Of a stretch of DNA of 23,775 nt, positions 3,763 through 21,557 are shown piece after piece. Origin of the DNA: a virus. Numbering within the stretch: position 1 is the stretch's first letter; every line of letters starts with the position of its first letter. Made by a program: the position numbers and the translations under genes. Below the pieces are notes generated by a model. It had not been told where the DNA came from, ran no database searches, and worked only from the letters and a program-made list of their open reading frames with translations. The stretch is taken from IMG/VR virus record IMGVR_UViG_3300042691_016606, positions 1 to 23,775 of that record. One strand, written 5' to 3'.

Positions 3763-4659
3763 TTATTGAATATAAAAATACTTGCTAAGAATTTCATGTG
3801 ATACTTCTTGCGTGATAGGTTCTTCTCCATTAACCACAGCTGCTACGTCAGTTAAAAAATTTCTACCAGCATCTGTAATGATGTAATTCTCGCTTACCAT
3901 AGTAAATAAAGGCTCTCTAAGAAGAAAAAAGATTGGAGTCTTTACACCTTCACTTTGAATGTCTTTAGCTAATTCAAAATGTCTTTCGTAATAGTGCAAA
4001 TTGTCTGCTAAGTGGTGATAAGTTCCTAACTCTAGGCTAGGGTATTTTTCTTTTAACCAATACCACATAGTTTGCATAAGTGTAGCAAAAAATGGTGCAT
4101 CGTATGTTAAGCCGTAAAAGATGTCGTTGGAGCGCATTTGGACTTTCATATTCAAGCGGTTATTGCGAATCCAAAAGTTAATATACATGGTGCAAACAAA
4201 ATCCTTGTTGCCCTCGTATTGATACTTAGGTTGATTAACAAAAGAGATTGCTTGACGAGTATTAGGGTCTTTTATTAGAGAATCTTTTGCCCATTGTAAC
4301 TGGCGCCCAAAAAGAATATGGCCATAGTTGGAATTAGCAAAACCATTATCCGAGATGTTTTTCCAAAAACTGGAAAAGTTATTGATCCAATCAATACCAC
4401 AGTCTCGACTCATATACCAGGAAAGTTCGCCCATAAAATACTTCCAGTTAAACTCTCGAGAATCAAAGTCAGGAACTGAAAAACGTGGGTCAATTTCTAA
4501 ATGAGCAAGCTCCATTTCACGAACTTTTAACCCCCTAGGTGCAGATTCATATCCGCCATTTTCTATTTTTTGCAGGGATTGTTTTGTTACGTAATTAAGT
4601 GTTTTGGTAAACCAGGAATGGTTAATTTTTGTGTCTGCGAGAATTTCTTGTACTTCCAT
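3763..4659 (-). CDS. Thymidylate-synthase-family enzyme, probably dCMP hydroxymethylase
   Basis: This 298-residue protein has the thymidylate synthase fold signatures: an ELSWY helix with Glu78, NYG (111-113), DPNTRQAI (131-138), catalytic Cys156, RSND (176-179), and His222/Tyr224 in LHYYERH. The residue equivalent to Asn177 of E. coli thymidylate synthase is Asp187, 31 residues after the catalytic cysteine, exactly the spacing in E. coli. That Asn reads uracil; Asp at this position is the hallmark of T4 dCMP hydroxymethylase (gp42). The likely reaction is therefore transfer of a one-carbon unit from methylene-tetrahydrofolate to C5 of dCMP, giving 5-hydroxymethyl-dCMP. A dCMP methylase is the main alternative. 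It overlaps the upstream dNMP kinase gene by one base in TAATG, matching a T4-like nucleotide pathway. The family is certain; the dCMP specificity is a strong inference. Confidence 0.85.
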   Translation of the reverse strand: MEVQEILADTKINHSWFTKTLNYVTKQSLQKIENGGYESAPRGLKVREMELAHLEIDPRFSVPDFDSREFNWKYFMGELSWYMSRDCGIDWINNFSSFWKNISDNGFANSNYGHILFGRQLQWAKDSLIKDPNTRQAISFVNQPKYQYEGNKDFVCTMYINFWIRNNRLNMKVQMRSNDIFYGLTYDAPFFATLMQTMWYWLKEKYPSLELGTYHHLADNLHYYERHFELAKDIQSEGVKTPIFFLLREPLFTMVSENYIITDAGRNFLTDVAAVVNGEEPITQEVSHEILSKYFYIQ

Positions 4660-5222
4660 TATTGATTGATAAATTTGTTAACTTTGTTAAGTATTTCTTC
4701 TGCTGGATAATAGCCATTTTCATCATGTACACGAATTAGCTTTTTGTTTTGTACTTTGCTATTTTGAAAGGCCTCCATGAATATATCCAATTCTTTTCTT
4801 TTGTCTTCAATTTTTGCCGAGTATGATTTTCCATCATCTTGGCTTGCAATAAAATCAGGATCAGCTACCAGGAGAATAAGATATGCCTGTTCCTCATTTT
4901 CCAAGAAACGTTCTTCGAGTTGTGGAACCCATGTATCAGGATATGAGTCACGGTACATCGTTCCATAGACGTGTTCACCCAAATGCGAGCGATTCCAAAT
5001 GACAATATCTGAAGTGTCCCAGTATTTTTCTACCCGCCACTTCATCATATTTAACTTAAAGTCCTCTTTTTGAAATTCTGTTTTGTCCTCGTTAGTTTCA
5101 CCTAATGGGTAACCCCAGTGCACCATTTCAGTCTTTTCGTACGTTTTTTGCAGGCCTGTAACCAATGTGTCTTTTCCTACACGGTCACAGCCCTCAATGA
5201 TTACAAGCTTAGTTTTTGACAT
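4659..5222 (-). CDS. Deoxynucleoside monophosphate kinase (thymidylate-kinase-like)
   Basis: The 187-residue protein opens with a P-loop, LVIIEGCDRVGKDTLV (GCDRVGKD at residues 11-18), in the form typical of thymidylate and phage dNMP kinases. It has a lid-side WNRSHLGEHVYG segment corresponding to the DR(Y/F/H) nucleobase-binding motif, with Asn in place of the usual Asp. An open frame extends to 5333, but the P-loop strand must start close to the N-terminus, so the ATG at 5222 is chosen; it overlaps the upstream gene by 14 bases. Direct coupling to the dCMP-hydroxymethylase-like gene suggests the same division of labour as T4 gp42/gp1, with this enzyme phosphorylating the modified dCMP on the way to the triphosphate. 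Substrate preference is inference. Confidence 0.82.
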   Translation of the reverse strand: MSKTKLVIIEGCDRVGKDTLVTGLQKTYEKTEMVHWGYPLGETNEDKTEFQKEDFKLNMMKWRVEKYWDTSDIVIWNRSHLGEHVYGTMYRDSYPDTWVPQLEERFLENEEQAYLILLVADPDFIASQDDGKSYSAKIEDKRKELDIFMEAFQNSKVQNKKLIRVHDENGYYPAEEILNKVNKFINQ

Positions 5223-7069: not shown

Positions 7070-8290
7070 TTAAAAGAGTGCTGTGTTTTTAATCGAGGTT
7101 TTATCCTCAGTCTGCTCCTCGCTTTGTTTATAGTTGTTCTGCTTGATAAAATCTGAATTGGAAAATTCCAGATTTCCTTTGATATATTCCAGCACCTGGT
7201 AGGTCCAATCCCTCGCAGTATTAACCGGAACATTCTGAGTGATATTAGCAAAACCTTTATGGGCTAACTTATAGTTATGAGGAATTCCCATCATATGCAT
7301 ATATTCACGGACATTTAACCACCTTTCACCAGAAGGATGCACGCCTAATTGAAACAGTCTTCCTACCACTGCCATTGACGGGTCATTACTACTGAGTAAA
7401 TGTGGTGTAGAATCCCAAACCTTCTTCACCTTGGCCCTTTCCAAGAGTCTTAAATGCGCCTGCGCAGGTTTATCATCACGTGTGCGAAGGTATTCGATTG
7501 CAGCATCAACCTTCCCAGAAGAAAAGAGATACAACAATAATGTTTTGTGCCCTGCATCAGCGATTTCACTTAGACTTTTCTTTTCTACCTGTGTTACCCA
7601 TTGAACTAGAGGATCATCAGATAACTGTGAGCCTTGGTTAAACTCATTTTGATATGATGCATCGGCGGGTATTTGCTTTAAATAATCAGCAGTACTAATT
7701 GTCGCAGCCTTGGTGTATTTCATATACGGGGCATTTTCATTGTCCCAGAAAAAGTAGAAGCTGCGGTCGCGTTTCTGAGGTATTCCATGCAGAACAGTTG
7801 AAGTTTTTACCATAGAAAATGAATAGCCATATTCTTTGGCAATGGCGCGCAATTTTTCCACGACTCCTGCGCCCATATTGGTAAATAGACCGGGTGCATT
7901 TTCTCCCCAAAGTACGCGAGGTTGTATATGTTCAAGTACAAACCTGGATGATTTGTACATCCAGTCATTTTGTATTGCATCCGAGCCACGCTTCTTTTCT
8001 GAGCCTTCCTTGGTAGAAGAATTCAATGCAGATAACCCAGCGCATGGACAAAGACTAACTACAAAATCAACTTTCTTTAAGTCCATTTCGCGGTCCCATA
8101 CCACATCATCGCTATCCTGGATAAGGCCAAACGGAACATCAAAGTTTTCACGTGTATGCGCGTCATTGCCTGCAAATGCATCGTATGATACAATATACTC
8201 AGGGTCCTTTCCAGTAGCGGCTTTGGCTCCCATTACCATTCCACCTATCAGAGGTATAATTGCGGAGTAGGTTATTTCTTGTTCTTCCAT
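7070..8290 (-). CDS. C5-cytosine methyltransferase-like protein, copy 2
   Basis: A 406-residue protein with the C5-cytosine methyltransferase motifs: a degenerate SAM-binding motif I (IPLIGGMVMG), motif IV CPCAGLS with catalytic Cys83, motif VI GENAPGL (Glu130, Asn131), and motif VIII PQKRDR (Gln172, Arg174, Arg176). A variable target-recognition region follows, then a C-terminal VNTARDWT segment (motif X-like). The usual PCQ is PCA. Its neighbour at 8292-9506 is clearly paralogous throughout, so the pair arose by tandem duplication. It ends NTALF, one of the shared terminal tags. If phage cytosines are already hydroxymethylated, ordinary C5 methylation would be blocked, so it may act on a subset of cytosines, on host DNA or on the modified base itself. 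Fold assignment is strong; activity is open. Confidence 0.82.
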   Translation of the reverse strand: MEEQEITYSAIIPLIGGMVMGAKAATGKDPEYIVSYDAFAGNDAHTRENFDVPFGLIQDSDDVVWDREMDLKKVDFVVSLCPCAGLSALNSSTKEGSEKKRGSDAIQNDWMYKSSRFVLEHIQPRVLWGENAPGLFTNMGAGVVEKLRAIAKEYGYSFSMVKTSTVLHGIPQKRDRSFYFFWDNENAPYMKYTKAATISTADYLKQIPADASYQNEFNQGSQLSDDPLVQWVTQVEKKSLSEIADAGHKTLLLYLFSSGKVDAAIEYLRTRDDKPAQAHLRLLERAKVKKVWDSTPHLLSSNDPSMAVVGRLFQLGVHPSGERWLNVREYMHMMGIPHNYKLAHKGFANITQNVPVNTARDWTYQVLEYIKGNLEFSNSDFIKQNNYKQSEEQTEDKTSIKNTALF

Positions 8291-8291
8291 C

Positions 8292-9506
8292 TTAAAATAG
8301 TATTGTTGCTTTTTGTGGTTCTGCTACCTTTGCAGTATTGTCCTGTTTATAAAACCATTGTCCAGAGGATGGCAATTCTCCTTTTAGATATTTGAGTACT
8401 TCTGCTGTCCAATCTGCTGCTGTGTTTACCGGAACATTTTGGGCAATGTGGTTATACGAAACTTCAGGGTCTAATAATTGGTAGTCATGAGGTAGACCCA
8501 TAAGGTGCATAAACTCACGAACTGTTAGAAACCTAGGTTCTTCTGGATGGACAGCGCCCCACATATTTTTGCTAATCACCGCATTAAAGGAGTTTTTATA
8601 CAATTTAGTAGATGAATCCCAGTAACCTTTGCCATCCATTAGTTTTTCCTTAATATGAACCAAGGCACGGTATTCATTACTCTTTGGGTAATGTGTGCCT
8701 GACCATTCAATGGCCTCGTCCAGTAAATCGCGATTAACCGTGTACGCAAAAAGACTAGTTTCACCAGAATCCATTAACTCTTGGTGTGTTGAACCTTTTT
8801 CCTTAGTAAGGAATGTATAAAGAACCAAGTCCTGTAATGTCCAACTGTGAATGCTTTCCTGTAAACTGGCATTTTCTGGTATTTTATCAAGATACTCTTT
8901 GAGAGTAGGAGTTTCCTTTTTGTATGTTCCCAATATTGGTGCATGGTCAGAATCCCAGAAAAAGTAAAAAGTTCTCTTTCGTACTTGAGGAACGCCGTGG
9001 AAAAAAGTGTCAGTTTTAACCAGGGACAGCGAATAACCGTATGCCTTTGCAATAGATTTCATTTTTTCCACTACCCCTTCGCCAATTGCTCCGTATAGGC
9101 CTGGTGCATTTTCTCCCATAAGAACTCTTGGTTTGATGTTTTCCAACACAAAGTTAATGGTGTCATACATCCACTGATTCTGCGCCGCATCCGAACCGCG
9201 AGCTTTTCCACTTTCAGTTTTCTGTGATGCATTTAGCATAGAAAGACCTGCGCATGGACATGTACTGGAAACAAAATCTACCCGGTCAAGGATTGGTGTG
9301 TGCTCGTGTTCATCCAATGTAATGAAAGGTACATCTGACCAGTAGTTTTTAAGATGGCTTTCGTTAGCAGCAAATGCTGAATAACTTACCAAATACTCAG
9401 GTTTCTTACCGGTGGCCTTTTCATTTCCTAATGCAAAACCGCCAATCAGCGGTACAATTGCTGCCCATTTTACATCTTCAATGCTTTCTTCACTTCGTCT
9501 TTCCAT
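8292..9506 (-). CDS. C5-cytosine methyltransferase-like protein, copy 1
   Basis: A 404-residue paralogue of the next gene. Motifs are VPLIGGFALG (degenerate motif I), CPCAGLS with catalytic Cys85, GENAPGL (Glu132, Asn133) and PQVRKR (Gln174, Arg176, Arg178), with a C-terminal PVNTAADWT segment. Conservation against the paralogue is high in the catalytic half and low between about residues 190 and 320, where target recognition lies; the two probably differ in sequence target. The chosen ATG is the only Met upstream of motif I and overlaps the upstream gene by 37 bases. The protein ends KATILF, again the T-x-L-F tail. The odd PCA in place of PCQ is shared by both copies, so it is a feature of this lineage rather than decay. 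Confidence 0.82.
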   Translation of the reverse strand: MERRSEESIEDVKWAAIVPLIGGFALGNEKATGKKPEYLVSYSAFAANESHLKNYWSDVPFITLDEHEHTPILDRVDFVSSTCPCAGLSMLNASQKTESGKARGSDAAQNQWMYDTINFVLENIKPRVLMGENAPGLYGAIGEGVVEKMKSIAKAYGYSLSLVKTDTFFHGVPQVRKRTFYFFWDSDHAPILGTYKKETPTLKEYLDKIPENASLQESIHSWTLQDLVLYTFLTKEKGSTHQELMDSGETSLFAYTVNRDLLDEAIEWSGTHYPKSNEYRALVHIKEKLMDGKGYWDSSTKLYKNSFNAVISKNMWGAVHPEEPRFLTVREFMHLMGLPHDYQLLDPEVSYNHIAQNVPVNTAADWTAEVLKYLKGELPSSGQWFYKQDNTAKVAEPQKATILF

Positions 9507-10921
9507 ATTTCTCTAAAGTTATCGATTTGGTAATGTTTTTTCATTTTATCCATGAGTTCTTCACGTTCCTCTGGGTGTGCCTCATAATACGATATTATGA
9601 GTTGAATATCTTCGTGGCTTTCTGCGGTAATTTTTTCCTGGAACTCCTTAGGAACTGCCAAGTACGCAGGGTCGTATCGGTAGTCCAGGATTGGAAACAC
9701 ATTCAATGAGAGATACAAACACATTCTCCAGTTGTAAATGTCATTGATTGCGATGTTTTTTGGCATAAACGCGTATTTGTATTGCGCCAATGTAGGGTTA
9801 AGTTCGTTGGTGTCAAGATATCCACGATACATTGGGTGATTGGAAACATTTTCCCACAATTCTGCGGTTTCTGTGTCCTTACTACGTTTTTCTTGAAACC
9901 GTGAAATTGATGCACCTTCTTTACGGCGCTCGTGGATGATACCGTCCATTTTAGGCGGTGCGTAAATATCGCTTTCTTCCAATCGCAAATCTTTTAAATA
10001 CTTATTCCACACATCTTTTCGCGTACCTTTACTTAGGAAAATTGTCCCGTAGTAGATAAAGAGCTTCTTTTTGGTTTGGTCAATAAGATGGTTCTTTTCG
10101 TAGAACAAGTGTTGTAATTCAGCAATAGGAAATCTTTCCAAGTCACGTGTTCCGCGTTTATCCTCTACTAATGCAAAGTTAACATGGTCTTTTGATACCT
10201 GGTCAAAAACACGGTAGTAACTGCCTGGGTCCACTACAAAGTAGTAACTGCGTTTAAACTCGGGTTGGTCAATGTAGTAACGACCTAAATTAAAGGCCAA
10301 GTTCTTCATCCAGTATGTGTAAGTTAGAAGAGATACATGATAGTCGTACTTTTCAGTTACGTCTTTGCAAATACGATGTATTTCAGAGATTACTTCAGAG
10401 TCGTCGCCTACATAATCATGGAATTCATTTCCGCGGTTAATTTCTCCTCTTACGGTTTTGGTGTTAAAGTAGTCCTTTAGCGGTAGAAAAAGAAAGCGCT
10501 CATCCAAGTACATTACATGTTGTACCGGAGTTTTTGGTAATGATTTGCGGAATTCTTTCCATAATTGCTCCTTGTTATAGAGGTAGGAAATTGCGTCTTC
10601 ATCCTCCATTTCTTTTACCCGTTTCAGTTTGGACTCCTTAAACTGTAAGAAATCTTTGGCTGTGATAACATAAATGTTACTAAACCCAAAGTCCAATAAC
10701 CTTTCACCTTCATTCTCGACTCCTAAAAATATGAGGTTGTACTTTGGCGCAAGGACTTCTTTTACAAAGTCCTTCATCCACCCTATGATGTGCTTCTGCT
10801 CATCAGAGAAAACTAGGCGTGAAAAAATAAGTGCCATTGTTTCCTTGTTAGGATCTAAAGGCTGCGGGTTAATCGCGGTAATAAGGTCATGTTCTTTTAT
10901 GGGTGCATCAAATAATGGCAT
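9470..10921 (-). CDS. GT-B protein resembling T4 beta-glucosyltransferase
   Basis: This 483-residue protein lacks a standard database-like signature, but its C-terminal 100 residues follow the plan of T4 DNA beta-glucosyltransferase. INDIYNWRMCLYLSLNVFP matches the region NFITLRVWETMASDAVM, and the final EIWKDEVKKALKM matches AEWQDAFKKAIDL. A KKLFIYYGTIFLSKGTRKD stretch near the middle resembles the T4 segment around its GGSFRSGQRES motif. These comparisons are from memory. It begins MPLFDAP, almost the same heptapeptide as the methyltransferase encoded upstream (MALFDAP). It starts 2 bases after that gene ends. The likely role is sugar transfer to hydroxymethylated cytosine in DNA. The long N-terminal half (about 280 residues) is larger than in T4 and may hold an extra acceptor or DNA-binding domain. 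Confidence 0.6.
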   Translation of the reverse strand: MPLFDAPIKEHDLITAINPQPLDPNKETMALIFSRLVFSDEQKHIIGWMKDFVKEVLAPKYNLIFLGVENEGERLLDFGFSNIYVITAKDFLQFKESKLKRVKEMEDEDAISYLYNKEQLWKEFRKSLPKTPVQHVMYLDERFLFLPLKDYFNTKTVRGEINRGNEFHDYVGDDSEVISEIHRICKDVTEKYDYHVSLLTYTYWMKNLAFNLGRYYIDQPEFKRSYYFVVDPGSYYRVFDQVSKDHVNFALVEDKRGTRDLERFPIAELQHLFYEKNHLIDQTKKKLFIYYGTIFLSKGTRKDVWNKYLKDLRLEESDIYAPPKMDGIIHERRKEGASISRFQEKRSKDTETAELWENVSNHPMYRGYLDTNELNPTLAQYKYAFMPKNIAINDIYNWRMCLYLSLNVFPILDYRYDPAYLAVPKEFQEKITAESHEDIQLIISYYEAHPEEREELMDKMKKHYQIDNFREIWKDEVKKALKM

Positions 10922-10923
10922 AC

Positions 10924-11802
10924 TTAGAATTTTGTAAAAATTAGAGTTGTTTCATGTACTTTTGTGAGGAACGAGTAGCGATAGTTACGTCGAAATGTAA
11001 AACCCGCACCAGGTGAATTGTTTTCAGTATACAATTTGTCATACAGGACAAACCCAGCTTTCCGTGCAGCAGTTTGGAAGTTATACTCCATATCTATCAA
11101 GCCAGCAGTACCTACTCGTACTGAACCAACTGTGAAGATGACTGGGTGAAACTTCTTCTCTGCGTAGTTAGAGGTTTTAACTACTCGATGTAACTGCGTA
11201 AACATTTTTTCAATCTGTGCATCAAATTCCTCGTTTTTCATGTAGGAAAGGTCGCCTTCTTCTCCTGAATACTTTTCAATTCCATAATATGGCGGACATG
11301 AAAAGACAGCATCAAAAAAACCATCTTCTAAATGTTCTAGGCTAGTACCATCACCATGTACCAACTTACAGAACGCCGTGTTATTTGGAAAGTTCTTTTC
11401 AATCATTGAGCGATTATGTTCTACAGTTTTGGCGCAAGTGTCAAAACCATAGTATTCCCTTCCTGTATGTATCGTCATAACTGGACGTGTCCCGCGTCCC
11501 ATAAAAGGGTCCAAGACCAAATACCCAGGTTCTGTGTAATACTCCAGGATAAACTTGGCCTGTGTTGGATTGTAGATGGAATAACGCAAGTTTTTTGCGT
11601 ATCCACCACCACGAGCAACAGCTTCGCCTTCAACTATTCCCAAATCAGTCTCGTCCTCACCAATCATATCCATAAGGTGTGAGTCCTTACCAAACTTCAT
11701 CACAGATTTTGGGATGCCTCCAAAGCAGTCTTTGAAGTTGATATCATCGATCCGTTTAAAAGGTTGATACAATGAGTTTTGTGGAGCGTCGAAAAGTGCC
11801 AT
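10924..11802 (-). CDS. DNA N6-adenine or N4-cytosine methyltransferase
   Basis: The 292-residue enzyme has motif IV SCPPYYG at residues 168-174 and a SAM-binding motif I, LDPFMGRGTRPV (97-108), preceded by a NPTQAKFILEYYT helix. Motif I lies before motif IV, and the S-x-PPY form is compatible with N4-cytosine or N6-adenine modification of DNA. It begins MALFDAP, the same N-terminal tag as the next gene, and ends TLIFTKF. Its start codon overlaps the stop of the alpha-glucosyltransferase-like gene in TAATG. N4 methylation would be chemically compatible with a C5-modified cytosine, as would adenine methylation, so the enzyme fits the island either way. Target sequence cannot be read from the protein. 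Confidence 0.85.
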   Translation of the reverse strand: MALFDAPQNSLYQPFKRIDDINFKDCFGGIPKSVMKFGKDSHLMDMIGEDETDLGIVEGEAVARGGGYAKNLRYSIYNPTQAKFILEYYTEPGYLVLDPFMGRGTRPVMTIHTGREYYGFDTCAKTVEHNRSMIEKNFPNNTAFCKLVHGDGTSLEHLEDGFFDAVFSCPPYYGIEKYSGEEGDLSYMKNEEFDAQIEKMFTQLHRVVKTSNYAEKKFHPVIFTVGSVRVGTAGLIDMEYNFQTAARKAGFVLYDKLYTENNSPGAGFTFRRNYRYSFLTKVHETTLIFTKF

Positions 11803-13251: not shown

Positions 13252-14844
13252 TTATTTATTGGTGCTGTGTTTTTGCATTTCTTGAATGAGAGACTTACCA
13301 CGCATATACATGGCCTTTTGTCGGTCCGGGCTATCTGCGTGAAAAGGAATTGCCGTGATTAGCAAGAGGATGGCCAGCTTCTTAAGCATTTCCACGTTAT
13401 AACCATGTTCTTTTAGTTCAGCTTCCAGAAACTCGGATAAGTTTTCCGTACCTGGAACCCAGTCAATAATCAGCTCGTCATCTTCATTCCATCGGTAACG
13501 GTTAGCCATAATCATGGCATACCCACAATAAAAATCCTGCAGTAGCTTACCCATGTCATATCGAATATCACCTTGCGTCCAAACGTTTCCAAAAACTCCG
13601 CGTGGGTCTACAAATTTAATGTTTCCGCTGTGTGGGTCATAAATAATGTTTCCTAAATGGCTATCACCATGCATTACCTGTGACCATACTGCGCCTCGGG
13701 ATAGTTCTAGTCCAGTGTCTAAGAGAAATTTTGTTACTTCCCTTTGTAAGTCAACGTGGAGTCTAATTTCATCCACCCTTTTCTTTGTCTTTATGTAATA
13801 GTGCTCAAAGCAGTGTAACGTAGCATCTTCCCATCCAACAGTATCATCAGTGCGTGTATGAAACACATTATGGTGAACTTGTAAAATCTTACGAATAATT
13901 TCGCGCCAGATGTCAGTTCGCAAATTATCATACACCAAGACTTCATTTAATGCCGTCCCAGGCACCATTTCCATTCGTAGTACTCCATGTTTGGAAGAAA
14001 GAATCCTAGGACAGAACAGGGATTGCTCCTCAGTTAAACCAAGAAACCAACTTTTTTCAGCCTCAATTTTGTTTTGCTTATCCACGTCTTCTGACGACTT
14101 TTCAATAGTTCCGTAAAAAGTATCAACCTCCATACGGTTAAATGAACGCGCAGTTCTACTGAGTAAACGTGCCTTGGATTCGTAATATGTGTTAAGTTCT
14201 CCACAATCATACCACTCATTAGCATGTGCCAATTCCATAGGACCTTCAGAAGCCATGTATGCTGTTAACAACGCGGCAATTTGATATTCACCTTTATGCG
14301 TTGGCCATCTCATTCCCTTTTCCAGAGACTTTGCAAAGGCTTTTCGGTTACAGAAATTGTAAACACCAATTAGTGCGGTATTGACAGGCACCGGTCCATC
14401 TGGTTTGTCATATAACTTTCCGTCCTTATCTACTAGACACCAACGGTGTGGGTCCGGTACTTCGTGAACCGCTAAAAAGTCTCGGTAGTAATTAAACTCT
14501 GTTAAACAAATAGTATCGCCTAACCAAACTGTAATACTTGATGCATAGTTGTCCAAAGCTTTGTAGCCTTCGTTGATTGCATGAAGCGGCCCCAGTTTTT
14601 CACCTTGTGGAACACATTTAATATCACGGTCAGGATAAACACGTGAAACAAATTCGGCAATATCACCTATTTCATTTTCCACAATTACGATTTCACAGAC
14701 GTCATTAGCCTCGTAAATCTTTTCAATAACATAAGAAATTAATGGCCGACCGTTAACCGGTATCATGGCTTTACTAACACCCTTTGAGAGTGGTTTCATT
14801 CGAGTGGCCAAGCCCGCAGCAGGAATAATTACGCTTCTGTTCAT
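13252..14844 (-). CDS. Fused sugar nucleotidyltransferase and APH-like kinase
   Basis: A 530-residue two-domain enzyme. Residues 1-235 are a sugar-1-phosphate nucleotidyltransferase: PAAGLATRMKPLS (8-20) with VSKAMIPV containing the catalytic Lys25, a WLGD metal site (107-110) and WYDCGE (211-216). Residues 250-530 are an aminoglycoside-phosphotransferase/choline-kinase fold: LRMEMVPGTAL hinge, HGDSHLGN catalytic loop (392-399) and FVDPRG (411-416) for metal. Such fusions make an activated donor by phosphorylating a small molecule and adding a nucleotide; AmgK/MurU (amino sugars) and LicA/LicC (phosphocholine) are two-enzyme analogues. Flanked by the HAD gene (ATGA overlap) and the alpha-glucosyltransferase-like gene, it probably supplies the sugar donor for DNA glycosylation. 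The actual substrate is unknown. Confidence 0.82.
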   Translation of the reverse strand: MNRSVIIPAAGLATRMKPLSKGVSKAMIPVNGRPLISYVIEKIYEANDVCEIVIVENEIGDIAEFVSRVYPDRDIKCVPQGEKLGPLHAINEGYKALDNYASSITVWLGDTICLTEFNYYRDFLAVHEVPDPHRWCLVDKDGKLYDKPDGPVPVNTALIGVYNFCNRKAFAKSLEKGMRWPTHKGEYQIAALLTAYMASEGPMELAHANEWYDCGELNTYYESKARLLSRTARSFNRMEVDTFYGTIEKSSEDVDKQNKIEAEKSWFLGLTEEQSLFCPRILSSKHGVLRMEMVPGTALNEVLVYDNLRTDIWREIIRKILQVHHNVFHTRTDDTVGWEDATLHCFEHYYIKTKKRVDEIRLHVDLQREVTKFLLDTGLELSRGAVWSQVMHGDSHLGNIIYDPHSGNIKFVDPRGVFGNVWTQGDIRYDMGKLLQDFYCGYAMIMANRYRWNEDDELIIDWVPGTENLSEFLEAELKEHGYNVEMLKKLAILLLITAIPFHADSPDRQKAMYMRGKSLIQEMQKHSTNK

Positions 14845-15236
14845 ATGTTATTTTCAGCTTTAATGATGTTCTCAAAAAACTCTGGGTTTTCCAGTGCAAA
14901 TGATTTGATTGATAAGTTTCGGTTATCCACATAGATTGGGTTTTCACCCCAAGCCTTGCCCATTACTAATTGATGGTATTTTACCTCGTTATCAGCCAAC
15001 CACTTTTCCAAGTTTGGCCGCATATGTTTTTCGACCTTTTTTACATCGCCGTTATGTGTTCGCATTCCGCGAGCAGTACTAAGGACGATAGTATGTCCAG
15101 CATCATATAATTCGTTGATGCGTGAGATGACGCCCTCAATAGGAGTTGCGTTCTCGTAGTCGAAAGAACCATCTTCACGCTGTGGTGAATGGCAGATGGT
15201 GCCGTCGATATCCATGATGAATGTATTTTTTTCCAT
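14841..15236 (-). CDS. HAD-family phosphatase
   Basis: The 131-residue protein has the HAD motifs: FIMDIDGTIC (nucleophile Asp9, acid/base Asp11), LSTARGM (motif II Thr), Lys in VMGKAWG, and YVDNRNLS (motif IV Asp). This small cap-less form resembles phosphatases found in capsule or sugar-nucleotide gene clusters. It lies directly upstream of the nucleotidyltransferase/kinase fusion in an ATGA junction, so removing a phosphate from a sugar intermediate is a sensible role. A GTATATAAAC element ends 4 bases before its ATG, which could make it the first gene of a transcript running through the modification island. The specific substrate is unknown. Confidence 0.8.
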   Translation of the reverse strand: MEKNTFIMDIDGTICHSPQREDGSFDYENATPIEGVISRINELYDAGHTIVLSTARGMRTHNGDVKKVEKHMRPNLEKWLADNEVKYHQLVMGKAWGENPIYVDNRNLSIKSFALENPEFFENIIKAENNI

Positions 15237-16904: not shown

Positions 16905-17534
16905 TTATTCTTCAAAGAGTTGATACTGTCGAGAGAGTTTAACCAATTTCTTTTTGGCCTGTTGTACCTTGTACCAAACCAGGCTAGGACTACAATCCAG
17001 GGCATCAGCAATTTCCTCTGTAGTGCATTCCTCAAAAAATTTCATTTTAATGACAGTGTACTGCTCTGTAGTTAATTTGTTCATTAACATTTTCATTAGG
17101 CGGTAAAACTGCTCTCTGTCAATGTCTTCATCAAAACCCGCCGCGTCTGGAATTTCGTATTCTGTGCGAGTATCGCTATCTCCGTAGATATCGCCTAAAG
17201 AATCTGCCTTAATGCGTTTCTTCTGCTTGGGAATCCCATTAACGTAGTTATGAACACATGCAACCATCCAGGTAAAAAGTTTGGACTTTTCAGGGTCATA
17301 TTGCTTTATTTTAACAAAGGCATTTCCCAGAACAATCATGGTAATGTCCTCTAATTCTTCAGGACCATACCAAGGAAGTCGACGGCTGGCCGCTGTGTAA
17401 ATGATAGGTTTGTATTTTTGAAGAAGAATGCTATAGGCACGTTGATTGCCTTCCATTGCCTGTTTGGCTAATTCTTTATCCTCTTCATGCGTGGTATAAT
17501 GTGCAGGTTTATAACCTTTTTTATTCTTTGCCAT
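16905..17534 (-). CDS. ECF-like sigma factor, possibly phage late sigma
   Basis: A 209-residue sigma-70 family protein with region 2 at about 32-107 (QRAYSILLQKYKPIIYTAAS and the melting/-10 recognition helix FTWMVACVHNYVNG) and region 4 at about 151-199, with a helix-turn-helix CTTEEIADALDCSPSLVWYK. There is no region 1.1 or 3, so it belongs with ECF-type factors. An ATG at 17564 is possible, but the ATG at 17534 follows the frame better and leaves only a 14-base overlap with the upstream gene. The last residues are SRQYQLFEE. A C-terminal hydrophobic-acidic peptide is how T4 late sigma gp55 docks on the sliding clamp, so this may be a late-transcription factor. It probably reads the phage-specific element described upstream of several genes. 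Confidence 0.85.
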   Translation of the reverse strand: MAKNKKGYKPAHYTTHEEDKELAKQAMEGNQRAYSILLQKYKPIIYTAASRRLPWYGPEELEDITMIVLGNAFVKIKQYDPEKSKLFTWMVACVHNYVNGIPKQKKRIKADSLGDIYGDSDTRTEYEIPDAAGFDEDIDREQFYRLMKMLMNKLTTEQYTVIKMKFFEECTTEEIADALDCSPSLVWYKVQQAKKKLVKLSRQYQLFEE

Positions 17535-17736
17535 CTGTGTAGATTTTATAAGCGTTAATTCCAATAACTGCTAGGTTCATAAGTATTACAGGTATCGCGC
17601 CGATAAGTATTCCATAGACCACAAAGCAGCCGCACGCAAAACTGTTAATCAAACGCAAAACAAAGATGTCTTTCATTGTCATTGAAAGAATTACTAATAG
17701 TGATGCAAAGTAACCGAAAATTTCAACCCCGTTCAT
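17521..17736 (-). CDS. Small membrane protein, YgjV-like
   Basis: A 71-residue protein with two or three membrane helices (GYFASLLVILSMT, SFACGCFVVYGILIG, PVILMNLAVIGINAY) and short polar links such as KDIFVLRLIN. The pattern resembles small YgjV-like inner-membrane proteins that are frequent in bacteria; function is unknown. It overlaps the sigma-factor gene and is preceded by the GTGTATATAAACTC element 12 bases upstream, so both are likely transcribed from it. Confidence 0.65.
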   Translation of the reverse strand: MNGVEIFGYFASLLVILSMTMKDIFVLRLINSFACGCFVVYGILIGAIPVILMNLAVIGINAYKIYTDGKE

Positions 17737-19806: not shown

Positions 19807-20046
19807 TTATACCTCTTTTTCTATTAGTTCGTTAAAAGTGACCCACTCTACCAGGTCATCGCCTTTCGGCATGCCTAGCAGAATTTCACCGTTCTCAGAT
19901 TTTTGAATTGCCACAAAACCATAACCTTCACAAATGTACGGAACGTAGTAGCCGGGCTCCAACCCAGCAGCTACTTCCAGGATATCAAAATCGTGTGGGT
20001 AGTCAAACCCTGACTGCTCCACATACTGCTTGCTAAATTCTGCCAT
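19807..20046 (-). CDS. Hypothetical protein
   Basis: A 79-residue acidic protein I do not recognise. Beta-like segments (GYYVPYICEGYGFVAIQ, GEILLGMPKGDDLVEWV) suggest a compact fold. It overlaps the MazG-like gene by 14 bases and ends one base before the next gene starts, so it belongs to the same transcript. Confidence 0.55.
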   Translation of the reverse strand: MAEFSKQYVEQSGFDYPHDFDILEVAAGLEPGYYVPYICEGYGFVAIQKSENGEILLGMPKGDDLVEWVTFNELIEKEV

Positions 20047-20293
20047 CTGCTTCTTGTCGTTCTAAACTCTTTACTGCCTGCAGTGCTACTGCTGCTGCCT
20101 GAATCAGTTCTTCTTTCAACCTCTCCAGCGAACCAGGCTTCCCAGCCATGTGGAAATCTACTGCCTCTTTGGCAGCCTCGCCAACCTCTTCGGTGAGAAT
20201 AGCAATCCACTCCACCGTGGAGTGATCTTGGATACCCCATTTGGTATCCTGGTTTTGGCATTCAGCCAATGCTTTCAAAATTTCTGCTTCCAT
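20033..20293 (-). CDS. MazG-like nucleotide pyrophosphohydrolase
   Basis: An 86-residue single-domain protein of the all-alpha NTP pyrophosphohydrolase type. The metal-binding helix is TEEVGEAAKEAVD (EEVGE at 35-39), and EELIQAAAVAL (61-71) forms the second conserved helix; KWGIQDHS near residue 18 is also typical of phage MazG-like proteins. The likely reaction is hydrolysis of a nucleoside triphosphate to the monophosphate plus pyrophosphate. In a phage that replaces cytosine, a dCTPase is needed to stop normal dCTP entering DNA and to feed dCMP to the hydroxymethylase, so this protein is a candidate for that step, but substrate specificity is not visible. Alternatively it may lower alarmone levels, as proposed for other phage MazG proteins. 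Confidence 0.75.
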   Translation of the reverse strand: MEAEILKALAECQNQDTKWGIQDHSTVEWIAILTEEVGEAAKEAVDFHMAGKPGSLERLKEELIQAAAVALQAVKSLERQEADGRI

Positions 20294-20615: not shown

Positions 20616-21557
20616 TTATTTTATATTCAATAGTGTTCCACCGTTCCCTGCAATGGTTGTAGGTAATTTACCATCCCAGTTTGACCATTTAATGTACTCA
20701 ATGTACGCGGGTGTTAATTCACGTTGTTTAAGTTTCATTGAGAGGGCAAGTGCTTGTGCATCAATGATTGCCTTAGCAGAATCACCCTTTGCAATAGCGA
20801 TTTTCTCTTGAGCTTCAGCCTCAGCAACAAGTTTTCTCTGCATCGCAGCCTGTGCCTCTTGTACCGCCTTGGTTTTACCTTCAATGGCTTGTTGCAATGA
20901 TTTAGGTGGTATAATGTTAGTTCTTAGCTGTGAAACTGTAAACCACTTAGAAACCCGCTTATTACATTCAGTAATGATAGCCGCTTCAAATTCCTCACGT
21001 TTATTAAAGATTGCATCCACTTCCCAACGGTTAGCCACGTCGTTTACAGATGAAACGATGGCATTCTTTAGCCATCCCTGTTCTATCTCTTTAATGTCTA
21101 ATCGAAGGTTAACAAACATTTCCCCGATTGCATCCTCACGTAGCGAGTAGTTAAAAGAAGGTTTAATGGTTGCAGCAAATCCACCTTTGGTAATGACAGT
21201 TTGTGCATCGTATTCAATGTGTTGCTGGAAGATTGGAAACTCTTTTACCTGCTCTGTCCAATCATTGTAGAAAACCCATCCCGTCTTGTACTGGTAGCTG
21301 GAAACTCCACGTTCCGAACCAGTGAGGTTCACCTTTAAGCCTTTGTTTCCTGCATCGATACGTTCGATAGAGAAAGGCTGGATTGCGGAAACCAAGAGTC
21401 CCACGACGATAATAACAATGCCCCGCAGTATGCCTCGTGTGCCTTCATCCTTAGCGGCGGTGTTGTCGTAATTTGCGTTGTTGCGTTTCATAATTCCGCG
21501 AACAATAGATGTTGCGCCAATACCTACGGCAACGAGTAGTAAAACTAAACTAATCAT
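20616..21557 (-). CDS. Band 7/SPFH (prohibitin-like) membrane protein
   Basis: A 313-residue protein with two N-terminal membrane segments (ISLVLLLVAVGIGATSIV and LRGIVIIVVGLLVSAI), then an SPFH domain from about 65 to 215 (IDAGNKGLKVNL, VITKGGFAATIKPSFNYSL). A long alanine/glutamate-rich coiled coil follows (VQEAQAAMQRKLVAEAEAQE). This is the prohibitin layout; such proteins form rings or scaffolds on the membrane. Phage versions occur in large phages and may protect the infected membrane or organise proteases, but no role is established by sequence. It is the first gene behind the terminator-promoter cassette at 21588-21657. Confidence 0.88.
   Translation of the reverse strand: MISLVLLLVAVGIGATSIVRGIMKRNNANYDNTAAKDEGTRGILRGIVIIVVGLLVSAIQPFSIERIDAGNKGLKVNLTGSERGVSSYQYKTGWVFYNDWTEQVKEFPIFQQHIEYDAQTVITKGGFAATIKPSFNYSLREDAIGEMFVNLRLDIKEIEQGWLKNAIVSSVNDVANRWEVDAIFNKREEFEAAIITECNKRVSKWFTVSQLRTNIIPPKSLQQAIEGKTKAVQEAQAAMQRKLVAEAEAQEKIAIAKGDSAKAIIDAQALALSMKLKQRELTPAYIEYIKWSNWDGKLPTTIAGNGGTLLNIK

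Follow-up and report, generated by a model that had tools for sequence, protein, structure and literature searches.

The window analysed here is a stretch of 23,775 nt, the entire viral record IMGVR_UViG_3300042691_016606, and is probably a piece of a phage genome. A search of annotated phages at the DNA level with the whole window returned no match. On the minus strand, positions 3763–4659 encode a 298 amino acid homologue of thymidylate synthase (PF00303, E 4e-14) and probable dCMP hydroxymethylase, which carries an aspartate at the position where thymidylate synthase has its base-reading asparagine; we refer to this gene and its relatives as Asp-type. An earlier note on this DNA had predicted that automatic annotation would label the gene thyA, and Pfam and PHROGs do both give 'thymidylate synthase'. 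The scores of the protein against the NCBIfam thyA models fall far under their cut-offs.

Directly upstream on the same strand lies a gene for a thymidylate-kinase-like P-loop kinase (4659–5222; phrog_761 thymidylate kinase, E 9e-12); its stop shares a single base with the Asp-type start. The kinase and Asp-type genes also occur as a pair, either adjacent or separated by a short gap, at loci L002, L005, L008-L011, L057-L061, L063, L068 and L088. T4 gp1 phosphorylates 5-hydroxymethyl-dCMP, and by analogy the kinase is likely to perform this same step, making it a probable hydroxymethyl-dCMP kinase. No solved structure was matched by its sequence. T4 and the window both have a glycosyltransferase gene close by, but in T4 no kinase gene is annotated adjoining gene 42. 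Further along the minus strand are two tandem genes for C5-cytosine-methyltransferase-like proteins (7070–8290 and 8292–9506), a gene for a glycosyltransferase-like protein (9470–10921; weak PF13524 match) and one for a relative of the phage alpha-glucosyltransferases (11802–13301; phrog_2888 alpha-glucosyltransferase, E 1e-94), which is 40% identical to phage G gp306 and is a probable hydroxymethylcytosine glycosyltransferase. These are followed, also on the minus strand, by a sugar-1-phosphate nucleotidyltransferase fused to a phosphotransferase-like domain (13252–14844; PF00483, E 3e-14, with a weak PF01636 match), which would probably supply the sugar nucleotide, and by an adjoining HAD-type phosphatase (14841–15236; TIGR01689 capsule biosynthesis phosphatase, E 2e-22, under the cut-off of that model). 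The fused nucleotidyltransferase recurs in the cassette, as do homologues of the 9470–10921 protein (L008-L011, L088, L104, L105 and L152).

The simplest reading of these neighbours is a pathway that modifies cytosine and finishes by attaching a sugar to hydroxymethylcytosine. The modification region of Bacillus phage G (gp301, gp306, gp309, gp310, gp313 and gp319) contains the same set of parts, namely an Asp-type homologue, two alpha-glucosyltransferase relatives, a nucleotidyltransferase, a HAD phosphatase and a C5-methyltransferase-like protein. Unlike in the window, the phage G nucleotidyltransferase is separate and unfused, the C5-methyltransferase similarity is weak (25%) and a CMP/dCMP deaminase is also annotated. 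A T4-like dCTPase (PF08761) was not found above cut-off in 12 related contigs, where other pyrophosphatases may be present. In the window, an 86 amino acid protein (20033–20293) contains an EEVGEA stretch that recalls MazG-type pyrophosphatases; it matches unnamed phage families only, and is a possible nucleotide-pool enzyme. The protein encoded at 10924–11802 has a short match to N4/N6 DNA methylases (PF01555) and a strong match to the unnamed phage family phrog_12517; phage G has it too, close to its own C5-like gene. Elsewhere in the window we observed a sigma-factor-like protein with region 4 (16905–17564; PF08281, phrog_1740) and an SPFH/Band 7 domain protein (20616–21557; PF01145, E 2e-18).

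Within the predicted active site, Asp187 (GAT, 4099–4101, minus strand) stands opposite Asp179 of T4 gp42 and the base-reading Asn177 of E. coli ThyA in our alignment. The catalytic nucleophile, Cys156 (4192–4194, minus strand; Cys146 in E. coli and Cys148 in T4), is invariant in all 70 family sequences and precedes Asp187 by 31 residues, the same spacing that separates Cys146 from Asn177 in ThyA and Cys148 from Asp179 in gp42. The residues leading up to the aspartate read R176-S-N-D-IFY-G183-L184-TY-D187, preserving the pattern RSND-x3-GL-x2-D. The earlier note had proposed the replacement, the spacing and the conserved flank, and each is borne out by the alignment; of the range it gave, 4075–4110, the aspartate and the residues after it do lie inside, whereas R176-S177-N178-D179 falls just outside, at 4123–4134 on the minus strand. 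Mutational evidence from 1992, as summarised in PMC8670742, shows that Asn to Asp at position 177 picks cytosine over uracil, and according to the same summary thymidylate synthase mutants of this kind yield 5-methyl-dCMP. Because these mutants make the methylated product, the aspartate alone says only 'cytosine', and not whether a methyl or a hydroxymethyl group is added.

The remaining residues around the active site carry that distinction. The ternary structure of the T4 enzyme implicates Asp145, Ser94 and Tyr96 in handling the reaction waters, with Asp145 the proposed activator of the hydroxylating water, and has Val85 where E. coli has Trp83 (PMC6400193). The water-handling trio is present in the window protein as Asp153 (4201–4203; Asp in 70/70, Leu143 in E. 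coli), Ser110 (4330–4332; Ser in 69/70, Pro in E. coli) and Tyr112, and the position of Val85 is taken by Ile102 (4354–4356; Ile, Leu or Val in 67/70), all on the minus strand. Thr157 (4189–4191, minus strand; Thr in 69 of the 70) follows the nucleophile, as a threonine does in T4, and occupies the place of E. coli His147. Positions 177 and 147 were the two best separators of modified from unmodified phage contigs in PMC8670742. The presence of Asp153, Ser110, Thr157 and Ile102 therefore makes hydroxymethyl a better guess than methyl. Cys156 and Glu78, the catalytic pair of the thymidylate synthase fold, are both invariant across the aligned family. Ser177 corresponds to T4 Ser169, on the deoxyribose side of the site, and Asp179 to T4 Asp171, on the pterin side (PMC6400193, PMC5175136). 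Two features differ from T4 gp42: Gln136 (Gln in 67/70) sits where T4 has Arg124, the second phosphate-binding arginine in that enzyme, and the C-terminus extends by about 50 residues that gp42 does without.

Comparison with solved structures points in the same direction. By sequence the best match is the T4 dCMP hydroxymethylase 1b49 (E 1.4e-14), followed by the CMP hydroxymethylase MilA; every thymidylate synthase ranks behind these two, with the wild-type E. coli ThyA entries at E 4.6e-5. Identity to gp42 is nevertheless low, at 25% in a six-row alignment. The AlphaFold2 model of the 298 amino acid protein has a pLDDT of 94, and its closest structural match is MilA (PDB 5jnh, 5b6d, 5b6e, 5jp9), with a Z score of 26.9 and an rmsd of 2.6 over 258 aligned residues at 24% identity; MilA also has an aspartate at the base-reading site. 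E. coli ThyA aligns with Z 23.3 and rmsd 2.4 over 236 residues, and shares the superfamily fold and the catalytic Cys, Glu, His and Tyr, but its Asn177, His147, Leu143 and Trp83 are Asp, Thr, Asp and Ile here. The T4 gp42 structures (PDB 1b49, 1b5d, 1b5e, 6a9b) are absent among the 50 structural matches listed for the model.

Scanning viral contigs with the single protein identified one relative only, whereas an alignment-based scan reached 80 related loci and gave 70 distinct sequences, including the window protein. All 69 sequences that reach column 187 have aspartate there. The scan used an Asp-type profile, with search patterns that left out column 187; as the query was Asp-type, the count describes conservation inside one family and is not a rule for all synthases. 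A better, internal control than this family-wide count is provided by five phage contigs (G006, G007, G019, G024 and G025), which encode, in addition to the Asp-type protein, another homologue that has Asn177, His147 and Leu143; G006 and G007 are near-copies, leaving at most four independent cases. Given the family-wide aspartate and the asparagine in these co-resident synthases, the sequences indicate that Asp187 is not a chance substitution. In an unrooted tree with some long branches, 22 Asp-type rows including T4 gp42 stand apart from the Asn-type synthases with a support of 100/100.

Several homologues in other phages deserve separate mention. Cyanophage S-TIM5 gp076 (L092, 5757–6593), annotated as a thymidylate synthase, has an aspartate at the base-reading site together with His147 and a synthase-like C-terminus, and falls on the synthase side of the tree; from its sequence it is a candidate natural dCMP methyltransferase. 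A synthase homologue in a control contig (L272, contig G052) similarly combines the aspartate with a histidine after the cysteine. Five contigs of 64–69 kb (L267-L271) have in common an Asp-type homologue with the motif DTPCTYAVQF and a YGFCNDQY loop, and seem to belong to a single phage group. In Acinetobacter phage MD-2021a an Asp-type homologue annotated thyA lies near a carbamoyltransferase gene (L006, 6868–8514 and 9965–10768), a pairing that has been tied to 5-carbamoyloxymethylcytosine (PMC8670742).

The analysis shows which residues the protein has, what fold is predicted for it, where it falls in its family and which genes are linked to it; from these results we infer with a probability of about 0.9 that the gene at 3763–4659 encodes a dCMP hydroxymethylase of the T4 gp42 kind. 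The earlier note had taken the aspartate as the mark of such an enzyme, and its proposal gains support from the further T4-type residues, the tree and the T4 enzyme as the best solved match. Following the T4 mechanism, Cys156 would attack C6 of dCMP and Asp187 would read and protonate N3 of the cytosine. Methylene-tetrahydrofolate would donate a one-carbon unit to C5, and a water near Asp153, rather than a hydride, would complete the hydroxymethyl group. The resulting 5-hydroxymethyl-dCMP would probably be the substrate of the thymidylate-kinase-like protein from the adjoining upstream gene, and once phosphorylated it would be incorporated into phage DNA by the polymerase. Glycosylation of the hydroxymethylcytosine by the neighbouring transferases may finally shield the DNA from host nucleases. 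Counted against this proposal are Gln136 in place of T4 Arg124, the C-terminal extension and the size of the 23,775-base fragment, which limits the search for partners such as a dCTPase. The principle itself is more than 30 years old (1992) and was confirmed by metagenome-wide association in 2021; what is new is another phage carrying it.

Were a hydride to reduce the one-carbon unit, as in thymidylate synthase, while Asp187 selected cytosine, the protein would be a dCMP methyltransferase producing 5-methyl-dCMP. The synthase mutants described in the summary of PMC8670742 set a precedent for this chemistry, and S-TIM5 gp076 is a possible natural example. However, the reaction-centre residues Asp153, Ser110, Thr157 and Ile102 follow the T4 hydroxymethylase and not the synthase. 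The T4 alpha-glucosyltransferase acts on a hydroxymethyl acceptor, and the linked alpha-glucosyltransferase relative would require one too; we regard a methyltransferase as improbable. Less probable still is a hydroxymethylase that, like MilA, acts on CMP for a non-DNA nucleotide. MilA is the top structural match of the predicted model, but its choice of ribose rests on Ala176 and Lys133, and the equivalent residues here are Ser177 and Arg135, as in the dCMP and dUMP enzymes (PMC5175136). As judged from the alignment, this pair would fit deoxyribose over ribose, and the gene is set in a phage DNA-modification cassette. That the protein is an ordinary thymidylate synthase tolerating Asp187, as the names given by Pfam and PHROGs would have it, is hardly credible when Asn, His, Leu and Trp are replaced by Asp187, Thr157, Asp153 and Ile102, and when its relatives share phage contigs with a separate Asn-type synthase.

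Besides the predicted dCMP hydroxymethylase and its probable kinase and glycosyltransferase partners, the cassette contains the tandem C5-cytosine-methyltransferase-like genes, both of which keep the catalytic cysteine. Copy a (7070–8290, minus strand) matches PF00145 with E 7e-16 and retains the motif CPCAGLS, and copy b (8292–9506, minus strand) matches with E 2e-22. The AlphaFold2 model of copy b (pLDDT 82) superposes on M.HaeIII (1dct) with a Z score of 26.5. Across 11 aligned rows Cys85 of motif IV, Glu132-Asn133 of motif VI and Arg176 and Arg178 of motif VIII are invariant, so the proteins have both the predicted fold and these motifs of the C5-methyltransferases. Motif I of the family reads PLIGGM, where FxGxG is usual for this class of enzyme.

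Starting from this family we fetched 80 loci, among which were 16 contigs of at least 100 kb. An Asp-type gene was present in 15 of these 16, or 13 of 14 with near-duplicates counted once. In the reverse direction, only 1/14 large contigs with an Asp-type gene had a C5-like gene. Eight unrelated control contigs of at least 100 kb contained neither the C5-like family nor the T4-like Asp type, though one of them had an S-TIM5-like aspartate at the site. A rough exact test for the T4-like type, 15/16 against 0/8, gives p about 1e-5, with non-independent contigs and a small control. The control is also not fully clean: aspartate occupies the site in 6/21 control contigs, of which five resemble one another in sequence and size and are probably one phage group. 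Both genes occur in the annotated phage G and Pseudoalteromonas phage vB_Psh_XG4, while S-TIM5 has a C5-like gene, four genes away from gp076, alongside its own Asp-carrying synthase; Fusobacterium phage Fnu1 has a weak C5-like match and no Asp-type gene. The C5-like family thus occurs almost only in phages with an Asp-type enzyme, most of which are without a C5-like gene. That C5-like genes are merely common in large phages is unlikely, given 0/8 in the controls and their absence from 13 of the 14 large Asp-type contigs. No report of this linkage was found in a literature search limited to open-licence papers.

The presence of the C5-like family in such phages is odd. A C5-methyltransferase works by substituting the C5 hydrogen of cytosine, which is missing from hydroxymethylcytosine. 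Either cytosine is only partially substituted in the phage, or the enzyme is directed at host or incoming DNA, or its target is the hydroxymethylated base. According to work cited in PMC11347137, C5-methyltransferases are reported to take the hydroxymethyl group off in vitro. It is possible, although we think it rather unlikely, that the family acts on 5-hydroxymethylcytosine in phage DNA instead of plain cytosine, with the same cysteine chemistry at C6 serving to exchange the hydroxymethyl group, strip it off or build on it.

Annotation pipelines that label such genes thymidylate synthase conceal a cytosine-modification pathway. The residues suggest a practical rule for phage genomes, in which Asp177, Asp143, Thr147 and the lack of Trp83 (E. 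coli numbering) distinguish the Asp-type enzyme from the synthase. Phages likely to have sugar-decorated DNA may be picked out by the linked genes. If the C5-like proteins do act on the hydroxymethylated base, they would add a further layer of DNA modification, carried out by enzymes of a class known for plain methylation. Their recurrence as a partner of the Asp-type enzyme poses a testable question, namely what their task is in DNA with C5-substituted cytosines.
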